Below are positions 16,820 through 22,724 of a DNA stretch of 40,260 bases, piece by piece. Source of the stretch: Pleurocapsa sp. CCALA 161 (lineage in GTDB: Bacteria > Cyanobacteriota > Cyanobacteriia > Cyanobacteriales > Xenococcaceae). Below the pieces are notes generated by a model. It searched no databases. It was given only the letters and a program-made list of their open reading frames with translations, and was not told the DNA's origin. Both the position numbers and the translations under genes were made by a program. Within the stretch, counting starts at the first letter, position 1. Each line of letters starts with the position of its first letter. Location: assembly GCF_003003995.1 (NCBI RefSeq), contig NZ_PVWF01000043.1, positions 1-40,260 on the forward strand, in the 5' to 3' direction.

Positions 16820-19800
16820 ATGTTTGCTAACGAACTTGCTCTGAACTTATACCAACTAGCGCAGTATTCAATAATTGAAAGAGATTTAATGCCAGAAGAA
16901 TCTTCCGTTCTTTTTTCTGGTCCCAAATTCCTGGTAGCATTACTGGCTGGGATATTAATGGCATTTGCCTTTCAATTGTTATTGACAAATTTCACAGTTG
17001 CTGTCGGAATTCCAATTCTAGCTAGTGGCGATGACGACGATGATGATGATGATGACCAACCAGATACTTTAGGCGGAAAAGTTCGTAAAACTGAAGCAAA
17101 AATTGGGCTTTGGGCATTAATTACTGGCAGTATTGCCTTGTTCGCTGCTTCCTATTTAGCAGTCAAATTGAGTTTGATTGAAAGTCCCCTACTAGGCGTA
17201 ATTATTGGAATAGTGATCTGGGCTGCCTATTTTTCGGTGATTATGTGGATAGGTTCATCGGCAGTAGGTTCTTTAATTGGTTCTTTAGTTAGTACTGCAA
17301 CCTCTGGCTTACAAGGGCTGATGGGGACAGCAACTGGTGCGATTGGGGCTAATATTGCCAGAAAAAGTGCGATCGCCACAGCCGAAGATATTACTGCTGC
17401 CGTGCGTGAAGAATTAACTTCTGGTTTAACTCCTGAAAAACTCAATCAGACTTTAGCGACTTCTTTAAGTTCTCTACAGTTACCTTCATTAAATCTTCCC
17501 GAAATTCGCTCTCAATTTGAACAGTTACTAGGTGATGTAGATTTAGAATCTCTCGGCGATATGCCTGATGGCATAGCTTCGCAACGCGATTTGCTCAACA
17601 ATATCAACCGTGAGACTTTGATAGATTTTCTAGGCAGTCGTACCAACTTATCTAAAACAGATCTCAACCGCGTTGGTGAGCAACTAGAAGGTGTTTGGCA
17701 ACAAGTTCTTAATCGCCAAAATCCCACTGAAAAAATTATCACTTTAATCAAGGAAACCAACCCAGAAGAGCTAAACACAGAAAAACTCAACGAACAAATC
17801 CAAGAATTAGTTGCAGTAGGAACTTCAGGCAACGGCAAAAGTAATGGCATAGTCAGACAAGCTGTTCAAACAGGCGTTGGCAGGGCTATACCAGCCGTCA
17901 TGGAGAGAGTTAACCTTTCTGATGTGGATATCGACAAAATCACTAGCCAATTACAACAGCTTAAAGGTAAAGCTCAACAAGTAGATGTCGAGCAGATCAC
18001 TCATAAGCTAAAAGAGTTGAGAGATAAAGCCACCGAAAAAGTCACAGAAATAGCTCCTGTCTCATCTTCTCAGACGATTCAAGCTGACATCGAAGATTAC
18101 ATCCTCAATTCCATGCCTTGGCAATTTAGCCGTCGCAATCTGATCGATGAATTCAAAGAAGTTATCTACGATCCTAATGCCAATGCTGGCAGCGTTAGCC
18201 AACAATTGTCAGAACTCAATAAAGAGTACTTTGTTTATTTACTGAAACGACGTGGTGATCTTAGTCCCCAGAGAATTGGCCAGATTGCTAAAGAGATGGA
18301 ACAGATACGCACAGAAGTCTTAGAAACTGTGCAAAATGCCGACAGCGAAGAAACATCTCAAGATCTGCGTGGCAGAATTGAAAATTACCTCCGTTCGACT
18401 GGGAAAGAAGAACTTAATCCTGACGCGATTGGACAGGATTTCTCTACTCTACTCGAAGATCCCAACGCAGGATTGGAAGAGCTACAAAAACGCTTCTCTC
18501 AATTTGATCGCGATACTCTGGTGCAACTACTCAACCAAAGAGACGACATTAATGAGGAAGAAGCTAATAATATCGTCGGTCAACTTGAGCATACCCGCGA
18601 TCGCGTTTTAAATCGAGCCAGAGAATTGCAAGAACAAGCTCAGGCAAAGGCTCAAGAAGTAAGACAAAGAGTAGAAGACTATCTGCGTAATACGCAAAAA
18701 GAAGAACTAAATCCCGATGCGATTGAACGGGAATTACAGACGCTGCTAGAAGATCCACAAGCAGGATTTAAAGCTTTACAGACGCGAGTATCACAGTTTG
18801 ATCGCGATACTCTAGTACAGCTATTATCACAACGAGAAGATTTGAGCGAAGAACAAATCAATCAAATTATCGATCGCGCTGAATCTGTACGAGATCGTAT
18901 TTTGCAAGCACCACAGCAGGTAGCTGAGCAAGCTAAACAACGTTCCCAAGCAACCATCGACTCGATTAGCGAATATCTGCGTAACACTAATCTAGAAGAG
19001 CTTAATCCTGAAGGAATTCAGCAAGATTTAACTAAATTGCTGGATAATCCCAAGGAAGGAGCTTTAGCCTTGCGCGATCGCTTGTCTCAAGTAGATCGGG
19101 AAACTTTGGTGAAATTGCTGTCTCAGCGGGAAGACTTGAGCGAAGAACAAGTTAATCAAACTATCGACCAAGTAGAAGAGGCAATTCAAAATATTGTTCG
19201 TGCGCCACAACGTTTGGCAAAACGAGCCACCAAAAAGGTCTTGGACTTTGAAGCTAATCTGGAAAACTATCTGCGCAATACTGATAAAGAAGAACTTAAT
19301 CCTGAAGGAATCAAGCGCGATCTGCAAATCTTACTACAAGATCCCCGTGCAGGAATGGGTACTTTGCTAGAACGAGTTTCTCAGTTTGATCGCGAAACTT
19401 TGGTTGCGGTACTCTCTCAACGAGAAGACATATCCGAAGAAGAAGCCAATCAAATTGTCGATCGCATTGTATCCGTGCGTGACTCAATCCAAGAGCAATT
19501 TCAGCAGATTCAACAGAAGATGCAGTCTGTACTTGACAGTATTTTCGGTAAAGTTCGAGACTATCTCAATTCCCTCGAACGTCCCGAACTTAACTATGAA
19601 GGGATTAAGCAAGATTTTGCCCAAGTATTTGACGATCCTAAAGTAGGATTTGAAGCCCTGCGCGATCGCTTAGGTGAATTTGATCGTGATACTCTAGTTG
19701 CCGTTTTAAGCTCCCGCGAAGACATTTCCGAAGAGCAAGCCAATCAGATTGTTAATCGCATTGAAGAAGCACGGGATAATGTACTGCATCAAGCCGAACG

Positions 19801-19969
19801 TATCCAGCAAGAAACCCAAAAACGCCTGAACGCTATTAAAGCAGAAGCGAAAAGACAAGCCAAAGATACCAGAAAAGCTGTTACCGATGCAGCCTGGTGG
19901 TTATTTGGTGCTTCTTTCACCTCTTTAGTTGCTAGCGCGATCGCTGGGTTTGTGGCTGTTAGTTATTAA
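16820..19969 (+). CDS. Large membrane protein with six 98-residue repeats
   Basis: 1049 residues. The N-terminus has a membrane segment at about 35-66, then nine aspartates in a row (71-79), then further hydrophobic spans at 95-117 and 124-158. A glycine/alanine-rich stretch follows to about 185. From 424 to about 1010 there are six units starting at 424, 520, 618, 716, 814 and 912; the last five starts are exactly 98 residues apart. Each unit reads roughly ENYLRNTxKEELNP, a DxxxLLxDPxAG stretch, then SQFDRDTLVxLLSQREDLSE and an EEQxNQIxDRxExxRD helix, ending in a glutamine-rich coiled-coil-like linker. A degenerate half unit is at 258-300. A single span at 1025-1047 ends the chain. Similar cyanobacterial proteins are often mislabelled as transporters, but no transporter fold is visible; a membrane-anchored scaffold or tether is a fair inference. 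A GAF gene follows 27 bases later. Confidence 0.9.
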   Translation: MFANELALNLYQLAQYSIIERDLMPEESSVLFSGPKFLVALLAGILMAFAFQLLLTNFTVAVGIPILASGDDDDDDDDDQPDTLGGKVRKTEAKIGLWALITGSIALFAASYLAVKLSLIESPLLGVIIGIVIWAAYFSVIMWIGSSAVGSLIGSLVSTATSGLQGLMGTATGAIGANIARKSAIATAEDITAAVREELTSGLTPEKLNQTLATSLSSLQLPSLNLPEIRSQFEQLLGDVDLESLGDMPDGIASQRDLLNNINRETLIDFLGSRTNLSKTDLNRVGEQLEGVWQQVLNRQNPTEKIITLIKETNPEELNTEKLNEQIQELVAVGTSGNGKSNGIVRQAVQTGVGRAIPAVMERVNLSDVDIDKITSQLQQLKGKAQQVDVEQITHKLKELRDKATEKVTEIAPVSSSQTIQADIEDYILNSMPWQFSRRNLIDEFKEVIYDPNANAGSVSQQLSELNKEYFVYLLKRRGDLSPQRIGQIAKEMEQIRTEVLETVQNADSEETSQDLRGRIENYLRSTGKEELNPDAIGQDFSTLLEDPNAGLEELQKRFSQFDRDTLVQLLNQRDDINEEEANNIVGQLEHTRDRVLNRARELQEQAQAKAQEVRQRVEDYLRNTQKEELNPDAIERELQTLLEDPQAGFKALQTRVSQFDRDTLVQLLSQREDLSEEQINQIIDRAESVRDRILQAPQQVAEQAKQRSQATIDSISEYLRNTNLEELNPEGIQQDLTKLLDNPKEGALALRDRLSQVDRETLVKLLSQREDLSEEQVNQTIDQVEEAIQNIVRAPQRLAKRATKKVLDFEANLENYLRNTDKEELNPEGIKRDLQILLQDPRAGMGTLLERVSQFDRETLVAVLSQREDISEEEANQIVDRIVSVRDSIQEQFQQIQQKMQSVLDSIFGKVRDYLNSLERPELNYEGIKQDFAQVFDDPKVGFEALRDRLGEFDRDTLVAVLSSREDISEEQANQIVNRIEEARDNVLHQAERIQQETQKRLNAIKAEAKRQAKDTRKAVTDAAWWLFGASFTSLVASAIAGFVAVSY
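18089..19846 (+). repeat. Coding repeats, six units of about 294 bp
   Basis: The unit starts are at 18089, 18377, 18671, 18965, 19259 and 19553. Spacing is 288 then 294 bases four times. Units 2-5 are the most alike; unit 1 is diverged and lacks the KEELNP motif, and unit 6 has RPELNYEG in its place. The linkers between units differ strongly in sequence while keeping length. Confidence 0.88.
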
Positions 19970-19996
19970 ATAAACTACCAATTGTCAGGGAAAAAA

Positions 19997-20509
19997 TTGT
20001 CTACTCCAGCAGATCCAGAAAATATTTTAGCCGAGTTAGTTAAAGCGATCGCCAATACTTTAGAGGTCGATCGCTGTTTTCTTTATGTTCGTGACCCTCA
20101 AACCCGTCTAGGTCGACCAGCTTTTTGTAATTGTCGTAATCCTCAAATTACTGATGTTAGCAGTAACCAATGGAAAGTGGAGACAGAATTAGAAGCTCAA
20201 GATCCTTTGTTTGCCGCAGCTTTGAATTGTCAAGCTACGGTATACGTAGAAGATGTAGAAACTGCTTCCCCCAAGGTGGTCAACCGTGAGTTTGAAGCCC
20301 GTGAATTTGGACATCGAGCTTTAATTCATGCTCATCTTTGTGCAGAAGGAAAGCTGTGGGGAATTTTGCAACCCTGTATGTTTGAGCGTCCTCGACATTG
20401 GACAACAACAAATCGAGAATTTATGGAGATGATGGTAATTCAAATGACCCCCTTAGTTCAACAATACGTACAAAAAAATCTCAAAAATATTAGTGGTGTA
20501 GGAAAATAA
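19997..20509 (+). CDS. GAF-domain protein
   Basis: About 170 residues forming one GAF domain: ILAELVKAIANTLEVDRCFLYVRD at the start, a central sheet, and the GKLWGILQPCMFERPRHWTTTNREFMEMMVIQMTPLVQQY-like C-terminal helix (quoted here in part from positions 20350-20470). GAF domains bind small ligands, chromophores or nucleotides, or mediate dimers. No output domain is attached. Several cysteines (in CFLYV, CNCRN, NCQA and PCMF) make metal or chromophore binding conceivable, but no phytochrome-type chromophore motif is seen. The start is not ATG. TTG at 19997 has GGGA at a suitable distance and gives MSTPADPEN; TTG at 19982 is possible and would add five residues. It lies in an operon between the repeat protein and the DUF3891 gene. 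Confidence 0.82.
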   Translation: MSTPADPENILAELVKAIANTLEVDRCFLYVRDPQTRLGRPAFCNCRNPQITDVSSNQWKVETELEAQDPLFAAALNCQATVYVEDVETASPKVVNREFEAREFGHRALIHAHLCAEGKLWGILQPCMFERPRHWTTTNREFMEMMVIQMTPLVQQYVQKNLKNISGVGK

Positions 20510-20511
20510 AC

Positions 20512-21234
20512 ATGATCGTAAACATGAAAGCGGACGGCTGGGAAATTATTTATCATCGCGCCCATGCTCTACTCGCAGCCCAAATCGCGGCACATTGGAA
20601 TCAAGCGGATTCACCTCTACGCATTACCGATACTATTGCTGCTATTTCTCATCATGACGATCTAGAAAAGGAATGGGAAGAAGATATGTTAAGCGAGGCT
20701 GGTGCGCCCAAAGATTTTACTTTAGAAGGACAAACATCGGTGGAGAAGCTAAATAAGCATATTGATGAAGCGTTATATCGCGGACGTTGGGTCGCTTTAT
20801 TAACTTCAATGCACACCTGTTTTTTAAATCAAGGTAGCGATTCCGAAGATATTGCTCAATTTGTCAAGGAACAAGAAAGGTTACAAAAACTGTGGCGCAA
20901 AGAATTAGGCGTAACCCAAAAAGAAGCCAATTCTGACTACCAGTTTATGAAATGGTGCGATCGCCTGTCTCTAATTTTATGTCAGCAGCAAATTCCCGAT
21001 AATAACCGTAAGCTAGAAATAAACGATGGTCCTGATGGTCAAAAATACTATATTGCTAAGTCTGATGAGAACTCATTAACAGTTACTCCTTGGTGTTTTA
21101 CTGAATATAAGGTCAAATTTTATGTAGAGACATCTCATCTATCTCAGGTTGAGTTTAAGGACAACACTGAAATAATAGAAGCATTAAAGAATGCACCGCG
21201 TAAATACCAAGAGTGGATCTTCGAGAAAAAGTAA
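20512..21234 (+). CDS. DUF3891 family protein
   Basis: 240 residues, soluble, all-alpha by appearance. The arrangement HRAHALLAAQIAAHW, AAISHHDDLEKEWE, LLTSMHTCFL and QFMKWCDRLSLILC, with conserved histidines and an HHDD motif, fits the DUF3891 family as I remember it and resembles an HD-type metal-binding helical bundle. The activity is unknown. The C-terminal third is a beta-rich region with WCFTEYKVKFYVE. The ATG stands two bases after the GAF gene's stop, so the two are surely co-transcribed and probably translationally coupled. A 10-bp inverted repeat follows the stop. Confidence 0.8.
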   Translation: MIVNMKADGWEIIYHRAHALLAAQIAAHWNQADSPLRITDTIAAISHHDDLEKEWEEDMLSEAGAPKDFTLEGQTSVEKLNKHIDEALYRGRWVALLTSMHTCFLNQGSDSEDIAQFVKEQERLQKLWRKELGVTQKEANSDYQFMKWCDRLSLILCQQQIPDNNRKLEINDGPDGQKYYIAKSDENSLTVTPWCFTEYKVKFYVETSHLSQVEFKDNTEIIEALKNAPRKYQEWIFEKK

Positions 21235-21245
21235 ATAGATAACCC

Positions 21246-21293
21246 GATCAGATCGCCTCACACAGATGCAACGCCTGGAGAATCGATCTGATC
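21246..21293. other. 10-bp perfect inverted repeat between convergent genes
   Basis: GATCAGATCG and CGATCTGATC are perfectly complementary across a 28-base spacer, in the 62-base gap between the converging DUF3891 gene and the CGGG-tail gene. A two-way terminator is the simplest reading, but neither side has a T-run, so it could be a protein-binding site instead. Confidence 0.5.
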
Positions 21294-21296
21294 ATC

Positions 21297-22724
21297 TTAA
21301 CCACCACCTCCACAACCGCCTCCGCAACCGCCTCCGCAACCACCTCCGCAACCACCTCCGCAACCACCAAAACTATCAGAACCACTACTGCTAGTTTTAC
21401 GGGATTTTGATTTTGATTTTGATTCAGGTTGAAGATCAACTGTAGTAGATAAACTGGAAATAATAAAAATAATGACCGAAAGTAAGATCATCAAGGCAAC
21501 AAAAACTAAGAAAAATGTTGAATTTTTAGCAGATGAATGATTAATTGGACTTAAGTTTAAAAAATTACCTAAAAAAGTAACTTTGATCAGTGAAGCTTCT
21601 CCTGGCAATAAAGACCGAAGAGAATTAAATTTAATTGTGCGATCACCTATTAAACTAGTATTAAAATCCCCTCCAATACTATAGTAATTTCTGACTTTGC
21701 CTACTAAAGATTCAGGTAGATTAACTACGATTTCTGCATTATTGATTGGTGCATCTCTTTTGGGAAAAATTGCTTTCCAGTTTAGTTGATCTGCTCCATA
21801 ATTATTGATAGTTGCGCCAATGGCACGATATTTTAAAATAAAAGTATGAGTATCTAGATCATTTAAATATTCTTGCCACTTAATCCAAAAGCGATCGCCT
21901 TCAGTAGCAGTTTCTATTGGTAAAAGATGGTCATTTTCAAATACTTGAACATCTTTAATTTCTTTAACCCGATCTAACTTGATAAATCGATAATGTTCAG
22001 GAGAATGTTGTTCATTAAAAACATATTTTTGTGTTTCTGTTACTAATAAATCGCCGTTATCTTGAAGATCGAGATTAACATTTAAAAAGTCCCAGTAAAA
22101 AGGATAATCGTTGGCAAATCCAGGTAATGCAACCCCAAAAAGTATCAATAGCCCCAAAAATATTGAAATAATTGCTGTGGCTTGTTTACTAAATACAAAA
22201 TCAATCTTCTTGGTAATACTTGCCAAAGATAGATGTGGTTTGGCAATAATCCAATTTTCTTCTGTATTAACTCGCTTAAAAATTAAATCTTTACCAAAAC
22301 GATTTTCTGGAGATGACCAAATATCTTCAGGTGGCTGATGATCAAAAATATTCGTATAACTAACTAAAGTTTGATGATATGAATCATGATATTTAATCTG
22401 TTCTAATTTGCCTCCTTGTGTAGGCTGATGATGTAAAGGTTGTCCCAAGACATTCGGACAAAATTCATCCCAATAGGAATGAGTATAGGTAAGATGTAAA
22501 TGCCAAACTTGGTCTACTTGTTCTGATGGTGTAACCATATGTCCTGCAACTACCGCCAAGAAAACAAATTTTCGATATTCTTGGATAACCCGATTAGTAT
22601 ACTCAATGTCCCAGCCATTTTCCTTGGCTAAACGTTGACTAAAAGCAAAATTAGTACCAGGTTGATCAAAAGAGAAGGCTTCAATTTTGGTTAAAAGTTG
22701 CTGTTCGACATTCACAACATTCAT
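21297..22724 (-). CDS. GRDP-like / DUF2207-like membrane protein with Cys-Gly tail
   Basis: 475 residues in three parts. Residues 1-130 resemble the plant glycine-rich-domain-protein domain (DUF1399): VDQVWHLHLTYTHSYW and CPNVLGQPLHH carry its WHxH and GxxLxH histidines. A membrane segment lies at 181-204. Residues 205-395 form a beta-rich extracytoplasmic region like DUF2207 (TETQKYVFNEQHSPEHYRFI, then NAEIVVNLPE). A second membrane span at 403-426 is followed by a lysine/serine-rich linker and a tail of five CGGG units (Cys 455, 459, 463, 467, 471). Proteins of the TIGR04222 type, as I recall, share such GRDP-like and GCGGGCGG-tail parts. Function is unknown. The start ATG at 22724 is clear and uvrA lies just upstream on the same strand. 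Confidence 0.82.
   Translation of the reverse strand: MNVVNVEQQLLTKIEAFSFDQPGTNFAFSQRLAKENGWDIEYTNRVIQEYRKFVFLAVVAGHMVTPSEQVDQVWHLHLTYTHSYWDEFCPNVLGQPLHHQPTQGGKLEQIKYHDSYHQTLVSYTNIFDHQPPEDIWSSPENRFGKDLIFKRVNTEENWIIAKPHLSLASITKKIDFVFSKQATAIISIFLGLLILFGVALPGFANDYPFYWDFLNVNLDLQDNGDLLVTETQKYVFNEQHSPEHYRFIKLDRVKEIKDVQVFENDHLLPIETATEGDRFWIKWQEYLNDLDTHTFILKYRAIGATINNYGADQLNWKAIFPKRDAPINNAEIVVNLPESLVGKVRNYYSIGGDFNTSLIGDRTIKFNSLRSLLPGEASLIKVTFLGNFLNLSPINHSSAKNSTFFLVFVALMILLSVIIFIISSLSTTVDLQPESKSKSKSRKTSSSGSDSFGGCGGGCGGGCGGGCGGGCGGGG
21303..21362 (-). repeat. Five 12-bp units coding for CGGG
   Basis: The unit on the plus strand is CCACCTCCGCAA or CCGCCTCCGCAA. Units 1-5 encode Cys-Gly-Gly-Gly. Third-position changes between units show that the array is not freshly expanded, yet a 12-bp register makes in-frame length change likely. 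Confidence 0.85.

Follow-up and report, generated by a model that had tools for sequence, protein, structure and literature searches.

A predicted membrane protein with a conserved 98-residue repeat period, and its likely link to GAF and DUF3891 proteins, in Pleurocapsa sp. CCALA 161

We have analysed a stretch of 40,260 nucleotides (nt) from the cyanobacterium Pleurocapsa sp. CCALA 161 (contig NZ_PVWF01000043.1; hereafter the window), with a focus on three consecutive genes that encode a large repeat protein given the working name REP (ORF1; ORF, open reading frame), a stand-alone GAF protein and a DUF3891 protein (Table 1). A previous interpretation of the letters alone, here called the sequence-only reading, had placed these genes on one strand with gaps of 27 and 2 bases; this layout is confirmed, given a GAF start at TTG 19997. 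The longest GAF ORF opens at TTG 19982, and TTG 19997 is most likely the true start, as it corresponds to the first residue of the closest homologue (L077, 81% identical). Throughout, L-numbers denote compared loci or regions and G-numbers denote compared genomes.

Table 1. Coordinates of the three genes and of the parts of REP in the window
Feature	Position	Strand	Basis
REP (ORF1), 1049-residue membrane-anchored (predicted) repeat protein	16820..19969	+	ORF
REP N-terminal membrane part (predicted), hydrophobic segments at residues 37-67, 97-115 and 124-157	16928..17290	+	hydropathy
Nine-Asp codon run, REP residues 71-79, in the loop after the first hydrophobic segment	17030..17056	+	sequence
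REP units 1 and 2, degenerate and variably spaced	17426..18061	+	iterated repeat profile, E 8e-21 and 4e-15
REP unit 3, next unit 96 residues on	18062..18349	+	repeat profile
REP units 4-8, starts 18350, 18644, 18938, 19232 and 19526, exact 98-residue period	18350..19819	+	repeat profile
REP C-terminal membrane span (predicted), residues 1029-1047, after a segment of net charge +5	19904..19960	+	hydropathy
Stand-alone GAF protein, 170 residues from TTG 19997; ORF opens at TTG 19982	19997..20509	+	PF01590, 3.5e-12
DUF3891 protein, with the HD-superfamily signature H18..H48-D49..H101..D150	20512..21234	+	PF13030, 3.5e-73

The repeats of REP are visible at the DNA level, where self-comparison of the gene gives direct repeats of 221 nt spaced exactly 294 nt apart. 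At the protein level, a unit profile was built from five clear units and iterated over a main set of 62 proteins (the window protein, L004 and the REP proteins of L077-L136), which were picked for full-length matches. The iterated profile finds eight units in the window protein and in 62/62 of the main set. Six repeats, spaced by 96 and then four times by 98 residues, had been described in the sequence-only reading; this spacing holds and the six correspond to units 3-8, but the count was too low—two more degenerate, variably spaced units lie on the N-terminal side. Measured with the repeat profile across the main set, junction 3-4 is 96 residues long in 59/62 proteins, and a length of 98 residues is found in 56/62 at junction 4-5, 52/62 at junction 5-6, 62/62 at junction 6-7 and 61/62 at junction 7-8. 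Remeasurement from a motif anchor gives 98 residues in 51/56, 52/62, 61/62 and 62/62 cases for junctions 4-5 to 7-8. The same arrangement (eight units spaced by 96, 98, 98, 98 and 98) occurs in L002, the window genome's own paralogue at 45% identity, and in the genus members L205 and L206; a further homologue, L204, gives a nine-hit pattern that probably includes one split unit, and its last spacings are as in L205 and L206. That the spacing in REP is under selection is well supported by these measurements.

Eight further homologues were selected because their matches looked short, long or split. Five of them (L212, L213 with one split hit, L215, L216 and L217) have seven units and lack the equivalent of window unit 4; L218 and L219 have eight units, and the ten of L214 include two copies each of units that resemble 3 and 4. 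The last three junctions are 98, 98 and 98 residues in 7/8 of these odd-length homologues, the other being L217 with 106, 105 and 98. The seven- and ten-unit homologues mostly retain the 98-residue spacing. Whole units have thus been gained or lost with the period mostly kept, and L212, L213, L215, L216, L217 and L214 can be regarded as natural length variants of the putative REP rod.

A tree of the 62 REP proteins contains two paralogue groups, which were assigned by hand as 40 and 22 proteins, with the deep-branching L130 and L132 counted in the smaller group and not firmly placed. When each unit of the smaller group is paired with its best match in the larger one, the ordinal positions agree in 174/176 cases; therefore the eight-unit array is older than the paralogue split, and is not a recent expansion. 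When hydrophobicity is averaged over 231 junctions of the 98-residue period, a 100-degree period extends between column 67 of the first unit and column 16 of the second—as expected of a helix that continues from unit to unit. This periodicity was reached in 0/2000 shuffles, with a phase difference of no more than about 6 degrees between its two halves; taken alone, the first half is weaker (93/2000 shuffles) and the second strong (2/2000). Among the 16 deviations from 98, seven of -4, two of -3, two of +7 and one of -11 roughly keep the helical phase, and four (+1 twice, -1 and +6) break it; related proteins may share deviations. The suggestion of selection for spacing is thus upheld, although some lineages have lost or gained whole units. 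Each unit holds about four helical segments, as judged by eye from the hydrophobic pattern, and the N- and C-terminal halves of the unit show no internal duplication (profile-profile probability 0.8%).

By hydropathy, 59/62 main-set proteins have one C-terminal hydrophobic span, which bears out the closing membrane span of the sequence-only reading; of the other three, 2 have two such spans and 1 has none. The N-terminal part has between 2 and 5 hydrophobic peaks, and none occurs between these and the C-terminal span in any of the 62 proteins; in window REP there are probably three N-terminal membrane spans, although this count is uncertain. The 27 residues preceding the C-terminal span have a median net charge of +2 over the 62 proteins (range -2 to 7), and the segment before the span in window REP carries +5. 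By the positive-inside rule, the positive flank of a membrane span lies on the cytosolic side, and the net-positive flank therefore suggests that the repeats face the cytosol. Nine consecutive aspartates had also been pointed out, and they are indeed present; the run is, however, lineage-specific, with eight aspartates in L077 and in L004, which comes from a Myxosarcina metagenome-assembled genome and encodes a REP with 85% identity to that of the window. Other main-set members have a mixed D/S/E/N/H loop, rich in D and S, at this position, and the nine-Asp run is a local variant of it.

REP is an undescribed, large protein family. No Pfam or NCBIfam family matches it over a curated cut-off, and sequence and profile searches of the PDB returned no convincing relative among solved structures; the best PDB match of the REP-unit profile is chain 8fjg (named H12, 8.6e-4), made up of two short helical stretches with individual E values above 1. 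No description of the family was found in the literature, in which the protein has no established name to search under. Matches at E ≤1e-10, some of them partial, occur in 72/148 genomes of the order and 57/386 genomes of the phylum. A viral or plasmid origin is unsupported, as nothing in the plasmid and phage collections searched matches REP.

Several candidate relatives of the repeat were considered and set aside. The sequence-only reading had raised a comparison with SAP/HeH/LEM-like folds; by sequence profile, none of these is among the best 25 Pfam families listed or the PDB matches listed. Apolipoprotein, TerB, DUF6781, DUF2267 and DUF883 all gave Pfam matches under curated cut-offs where shown, and a DUF2267-like neighbour, named by eye and not by Pfam scan, reached a profile-profile probability of 1.3% against the repeat. 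Matches to phage tape-measure PHROG 167 (3.5e-7) and to a PADLOC 2TM effector (6.5e-5, in three stretches) were judged to be of the coiled-helix type. In addition, the 98-residue profile listed several annexins, but not significantly (E 0.2-8.4), and none was listed with a shorter REP profile or among the Pfam matches shown. As for more distant forms, short REP-like frames of 354-375 residues (G017:C34, G102:C1, G119:C7 and G045:C1) match the first third of REP only, and an OCP-N gene lies about 3.5 kb from the short frame in G017, G102 and G119. A third REP form, full length and 26-30% identical, occurs within the genus (G120:C7, G046:C1 and G479:C370).

The second gene had been named a stand-alone GAF sensor, and its GAF identity is secure: the PF01590 match scores 47.5 bits against a curated cut-off of 22.4. 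Its profile matches 12 PDB sequences at E ≤0.01, RcaE and miRFP670nano among them, with 5dfx the best at 5.2e-7, so that it resembles the GAF domains of cyanobacteriochromes and phytochromes. In the alignment to 5dfx, a valine of the GAF protein stands opposite the cysteine of the FTDCHL stretch, which we take to be the canonical bilin-binding cysteine; the usual covalent bilin binding is therefore unlikely. Unlike cyanobacteriochromes, the protein lacks this cysteine, and it stands alone with no output domain.

The DUF3891 identity of the third gene and its HHDD motif, both noticed before, are equally firm, with HHDD invariant in 20/20 aligned homologues. H18, H48, D49, H101 and D150 are invariant in that 20-row alignment and in six divergent members of down to 23% identity, one of which reads QHDIGW. 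The order H..HD..H..D is presumably that of the metal ligands in the HD superfamily, and the signature lends support to the suggestion that this protein may be a metal enzyme: as in HD phosphohydrolases and oxygenases, it would probably be an HD-type metal-dependent hydrolase or oxygenase. In contrast to members of that superfamily, DUF3891 gives no cross-match to it—no HD family was listed in Pfam and no HD protein in the PDB at E ≤10—and membership is therefore unproved. The name DUF3891 appeared in no paper of the literature searched, and "PF13030" gave Plasmodium papers among the matches listed. A scan of viral contigs found no DUF3891 relative, and one plasmid relative was found, in Chryseobacterium (L195, plasmid NZ_CP041688.1), where the gene lies directly downstream of the cyanophycin synthetase gene cphA; a cphA-like gene occurs in just one compared cyanobacterial locus, the REP locus L115 (28%). 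In L063 and L066 (also L070 and L073), DUF3891 lies near HemN, haem oxygenase and AcsF-like genes, named by eye, and loci of the L063 and L066 type are possibly low-oxygen tetrapyrrole clusters. HemN is present in 4/20 DUF3891 loci against 1/40 random regions, haem oxygenase in 3/20 and AcsF in 2/20 DUF3891 loci; a general link of stand-alone DUF3891 to low-oxygen haem genes was set aside, being seen in few loci only.

The three genes are associated well beyond the window. Among the 148 order genomes, REP is present in 72, DUF3891 in 48 (49 with G008, a weak match inside an 895-residue frame that was dropped) and a GAF orthologue in 40, orthologues being taken as matches with E below 1e-40 and weaker GAF matches being dropped. 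REP is found in 48/48 DUF3891 genomes and 40/40 GAF genomes, and DUF3891 in 39/40 GAF genomes. Shuffling within 33 families (145 labelled genomes, 20000 permutations) gives an expectation of 41.4 for the 48 joint occurrences of REP and DUF3891 (observed value reached in 0/20000), 35.3 for the 40 of REP and GAF (2/20000), and 30.2 for the 39 of DUF3891 and GAF (0/20000). The genes also tend to lie close together: REP is within 10 kb of DUF3891 in 7/48 genomes against 0.39 expected (Poisson 1.8e-7), or in 3/17 families against 0.14 (4e-4), with one DUF3891 copy assumed per genome and the 10-kb limit set after the coordinates had been seen. A further such case, L135, lies outside the order.

The sequence-only reading treated the three genes as one module to be sought as a trio across cyanobacteria. 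Here the underlying observation was right and even understated, while the operon claim was too strong: the strict order REP-GAF-DUF3891 occurs in the window genome only, among the genomes examined, and what recurs around REP is genes for stress and photoprotection. Although the trio does not form a conserved three-gene unit, co-occurrence, proximity and a sequence scar in G135 make it likely that REP, GAF and DUF3891 are functionally linked. In G135, an antiporter gene and a TrkA-like gene (named by eye) lie between REP and GAF, and the intact REP gene is 3.5 kb away; just upstream of GAF (L077, 5401-5541), the last ten codons and stop of REP are nonetheless found, starting at the octamer GCGATCGC, within 141 bases that match the window (5.6e-24). 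The scar reads as the trace of an insertion or recombination, and because it stands upstream of the G135 GAF gene, REP probably preceded GAF before the window and G135 lineages parted.

Within the genus, DUF3891 accompanies a full window-type REP (85% identity or more) in 4/4 genomes, and it is missing from 5 genomes that have only the 44-46% type, three of these also with the 26-30% form. G484, with DUF3891 and only 40-51% REP pieces, and G478, with REP fragments of 91% and 56% and no DUF3891, are exceptions to this pattern; G477 and G482 have neither gene. The pairing with window-type REP is local, since elsewhere in the order (L097-L099) DUF3891 is found alongside the other REP group.

Six families recur as neighbours in the 62 REP loci: YflT, CAAD (CurT-type), BON lipoprotein, CsbD, high-light-inducible protein and OCP-N protein. 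At least one of them is present in 28/61 REP loci (window excluded), 3/20 DUF3891 loci and 1/40 random regions (two from each of 20 genomes), a comparison in which most REP regions and all random regions span 20 kb and DUF3891 loci 10-16 kb, and which favours REP loci because the stress profiles were derived from REP neighbours and many of the loci come from related genomes. YflT, CAAD and BON occur together with REP in three families in differing gene orders (L080-type, L100 and L127), and a CAAD gene is found in 11/61 REP loci and 0/40 random regions. Among loci of the window's genus that carry the other REP group, CsbD is present in L104-L106, whereas L107 lacks all six. According to PMC4893482, the CAAD domain directs proteins to thylakoids and shares homology with CURT1. 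Further candidate stress neighbours are an MpsC-type gene in L097, L098 and L115 (PF10057 for the L097 member) and DUF2267- and DUF2231-type-looking genes, named by eye, in the same three REP loci. PMC7660261 describes a BON gene and its neighbours (Npun_F3786-F3789) as raised in an alkane-overproducing Nostoc; no connection between this lead and a REP homologue could be made, and it was not used.

We favour a reading in which REP is a doubly membrane-anchored helical scaffold for stress, and hold it tentatively, at a little less than even confidence. REP would consist of N-terminal membrane spans, usually eight cytosolic helical units and a C-terminal membrane span, with unbroken helices linking the last five units at fixed phase. 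It may give structural support to an internal membrane, probably the thylakoid, as a scaffold or spacer in a general stress and photoprotection response. The GAF sensor and the probable HD-type hydrolase or oxygenase would form a co-inherited soluble pair that serves the same response, and that lies directly downstream of REP in the window lineage. What the data show directly is how the units are arranged, that their period is conserved and which genes accompany REP; fold, topology, choice of membrane, enzyme class and function are inferred. Several results weigh against this reading. The motif anchor gives 96 residues for junction 3-4 in just 25/34 measurable cases; 145 anchor pairs escaped it, of which 139 fall within junctions 1-2 to 3-4. 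A proline stands at column 90 in 48% of 239 98-residue units, and may kink the linker helix in some junctions. In some members, the flank before the C-terminal span has little positive charge, with values as low as -2. Readings that depend on an exact total length lose ground because the number of units varies (of eight odd-length homologues, five have seven and one has ten). Finally, 33/61 REP loci, including the window-type L004 and L077, have none of the six stress families.

The chief alternative is a signalling module, in which the GAF protein would respond to a small ligand and regulate the DUF3891 enzyme, with REP as the membrane platform or output. The short gaps between the window genes suit this arrangement, as do the co-occurrence in excess of the within-family expectation and the adjacency of GAF and DUF3891 in 8/39 order genomes that have both, and in 5/5 DUF3891 genomes of a 13-genome genus sample. 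We nevertheless consider it rather unlikely, as REP occurs without either partner in 23/72 genomes (24/72 lack DUF3891), 6/11 REP-bearing genus genomes have no DUF3891, and REP stands directly beside the pair in the window genome only.

It is also possible, although unlikely, that REP is a coat on the membrane surface rather than a free-standing rod, with amphipathic helices that bind lipid directly in the manner of apolipoproteins. The repeats do contain amphipathic segments, and a weak similarity to the apolipoprotein family PF01442 was seen (2.6e-4); at 21 bits against a curated cut-off of 90, however, this match is far under the threshold and of the low-complexity helical kind. Most lipid-binding helices are not strongly acidic, whereas the repeat domain of REP is (149 D+E versus 97 K+R over residues 201-1000), and a coat has no need of the near-exact length conservation seen here.

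That the three genes are neighbours by chance, their co-occurrence reflecting a shared lifestyle of large-genome cyanobacteria, seems distinctly unlikely. The restriction of the strict trio to the window genome fits such a view, and so does the behaviour of OCP-N: this general photoprotection gene is also associated with REP, being present in 69/72 REP genomes and 55/76 others (tallied by hand), so that lifestyle may explain part of the co-occurrence, which counts against our preferred reading as well. Chance does not account easily for the absence of DUF3891 from all 76 REP-less order genomes (the weak G008 hit dropped), for a within-family permutation that never reaches the observed value, for the proximity of REP and DUF3891 in 7 genomes of 3 families and in L135, or for the REP 3'-end scar upstream of GAF in G135. 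Very improbable is a ruler, in which the two ends of REP would be anchored in different membranes, either neighbouring thylakoid sheets or the thylakoid and the plasma membrane. Its phase-locked units would then determine how wide the cytosolic gap between them is, seven- and ten-unit lineages would have other widths, and GAF-DUF3891 would adjust the tether to light or stress.

Returning to the scaffold reading, some known systems offer useful comparisons. Spectrin repeats are about 106 residues long and have continuous linker helices. Like spectrin rods, REP has repeats of fixed length, predicted to be helical, and by analogy it may be a membrane-associated scaffold. Its linkers may likewise form one continuous helix, for which the 100-degree periodicity speaks and against which the column-90 proline does. 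Unlike spectrin, REP is bacterial, has two membrane anchors of its own and about four helical segments per unit, and shows no spectrin match in the Pfam and PDB listings. CURT1, for which PMC9950537 gives a prediction of two helices that span the membrane and two that are soluble, shares with REP the character of a membrane protein, and its CAAD (CurT-type) relatives are encoded at REP loci as described above; the REP-unit profile and the CAAD profile are nevertheless unlike each other (probability 0.2%).

Next to the three genes, a DUF2207 membrane protein (PF09972, 2.1e-14) is encoded on the minus strand at 21297-22724, with GGCG-type repeats containing five cysteines at its end and a WHLH...H stretch in its N-terminal part (by eye). 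Between the convergent DUF3891 and DUF2207 genes, at about 21246-21293, lies a perfect 10-base inverted repeat, GATCAGATCG ... CGATCTGATC, seen by eye; it has no T-run, and the terminator scan did not report it.

If the scaffold reading is correct, an undescribed family present in about half of the sampled genomes of the order would be a structural element of internal membranes. The 98-residue unit design, with its seven-, eight- and ten-unit versions, would offer a direct handle, through units added or taken away or a one-residue shift in phase, on how membrane spacing or shape is set, and DUF3891 would gain a likely enzyme class and a context.

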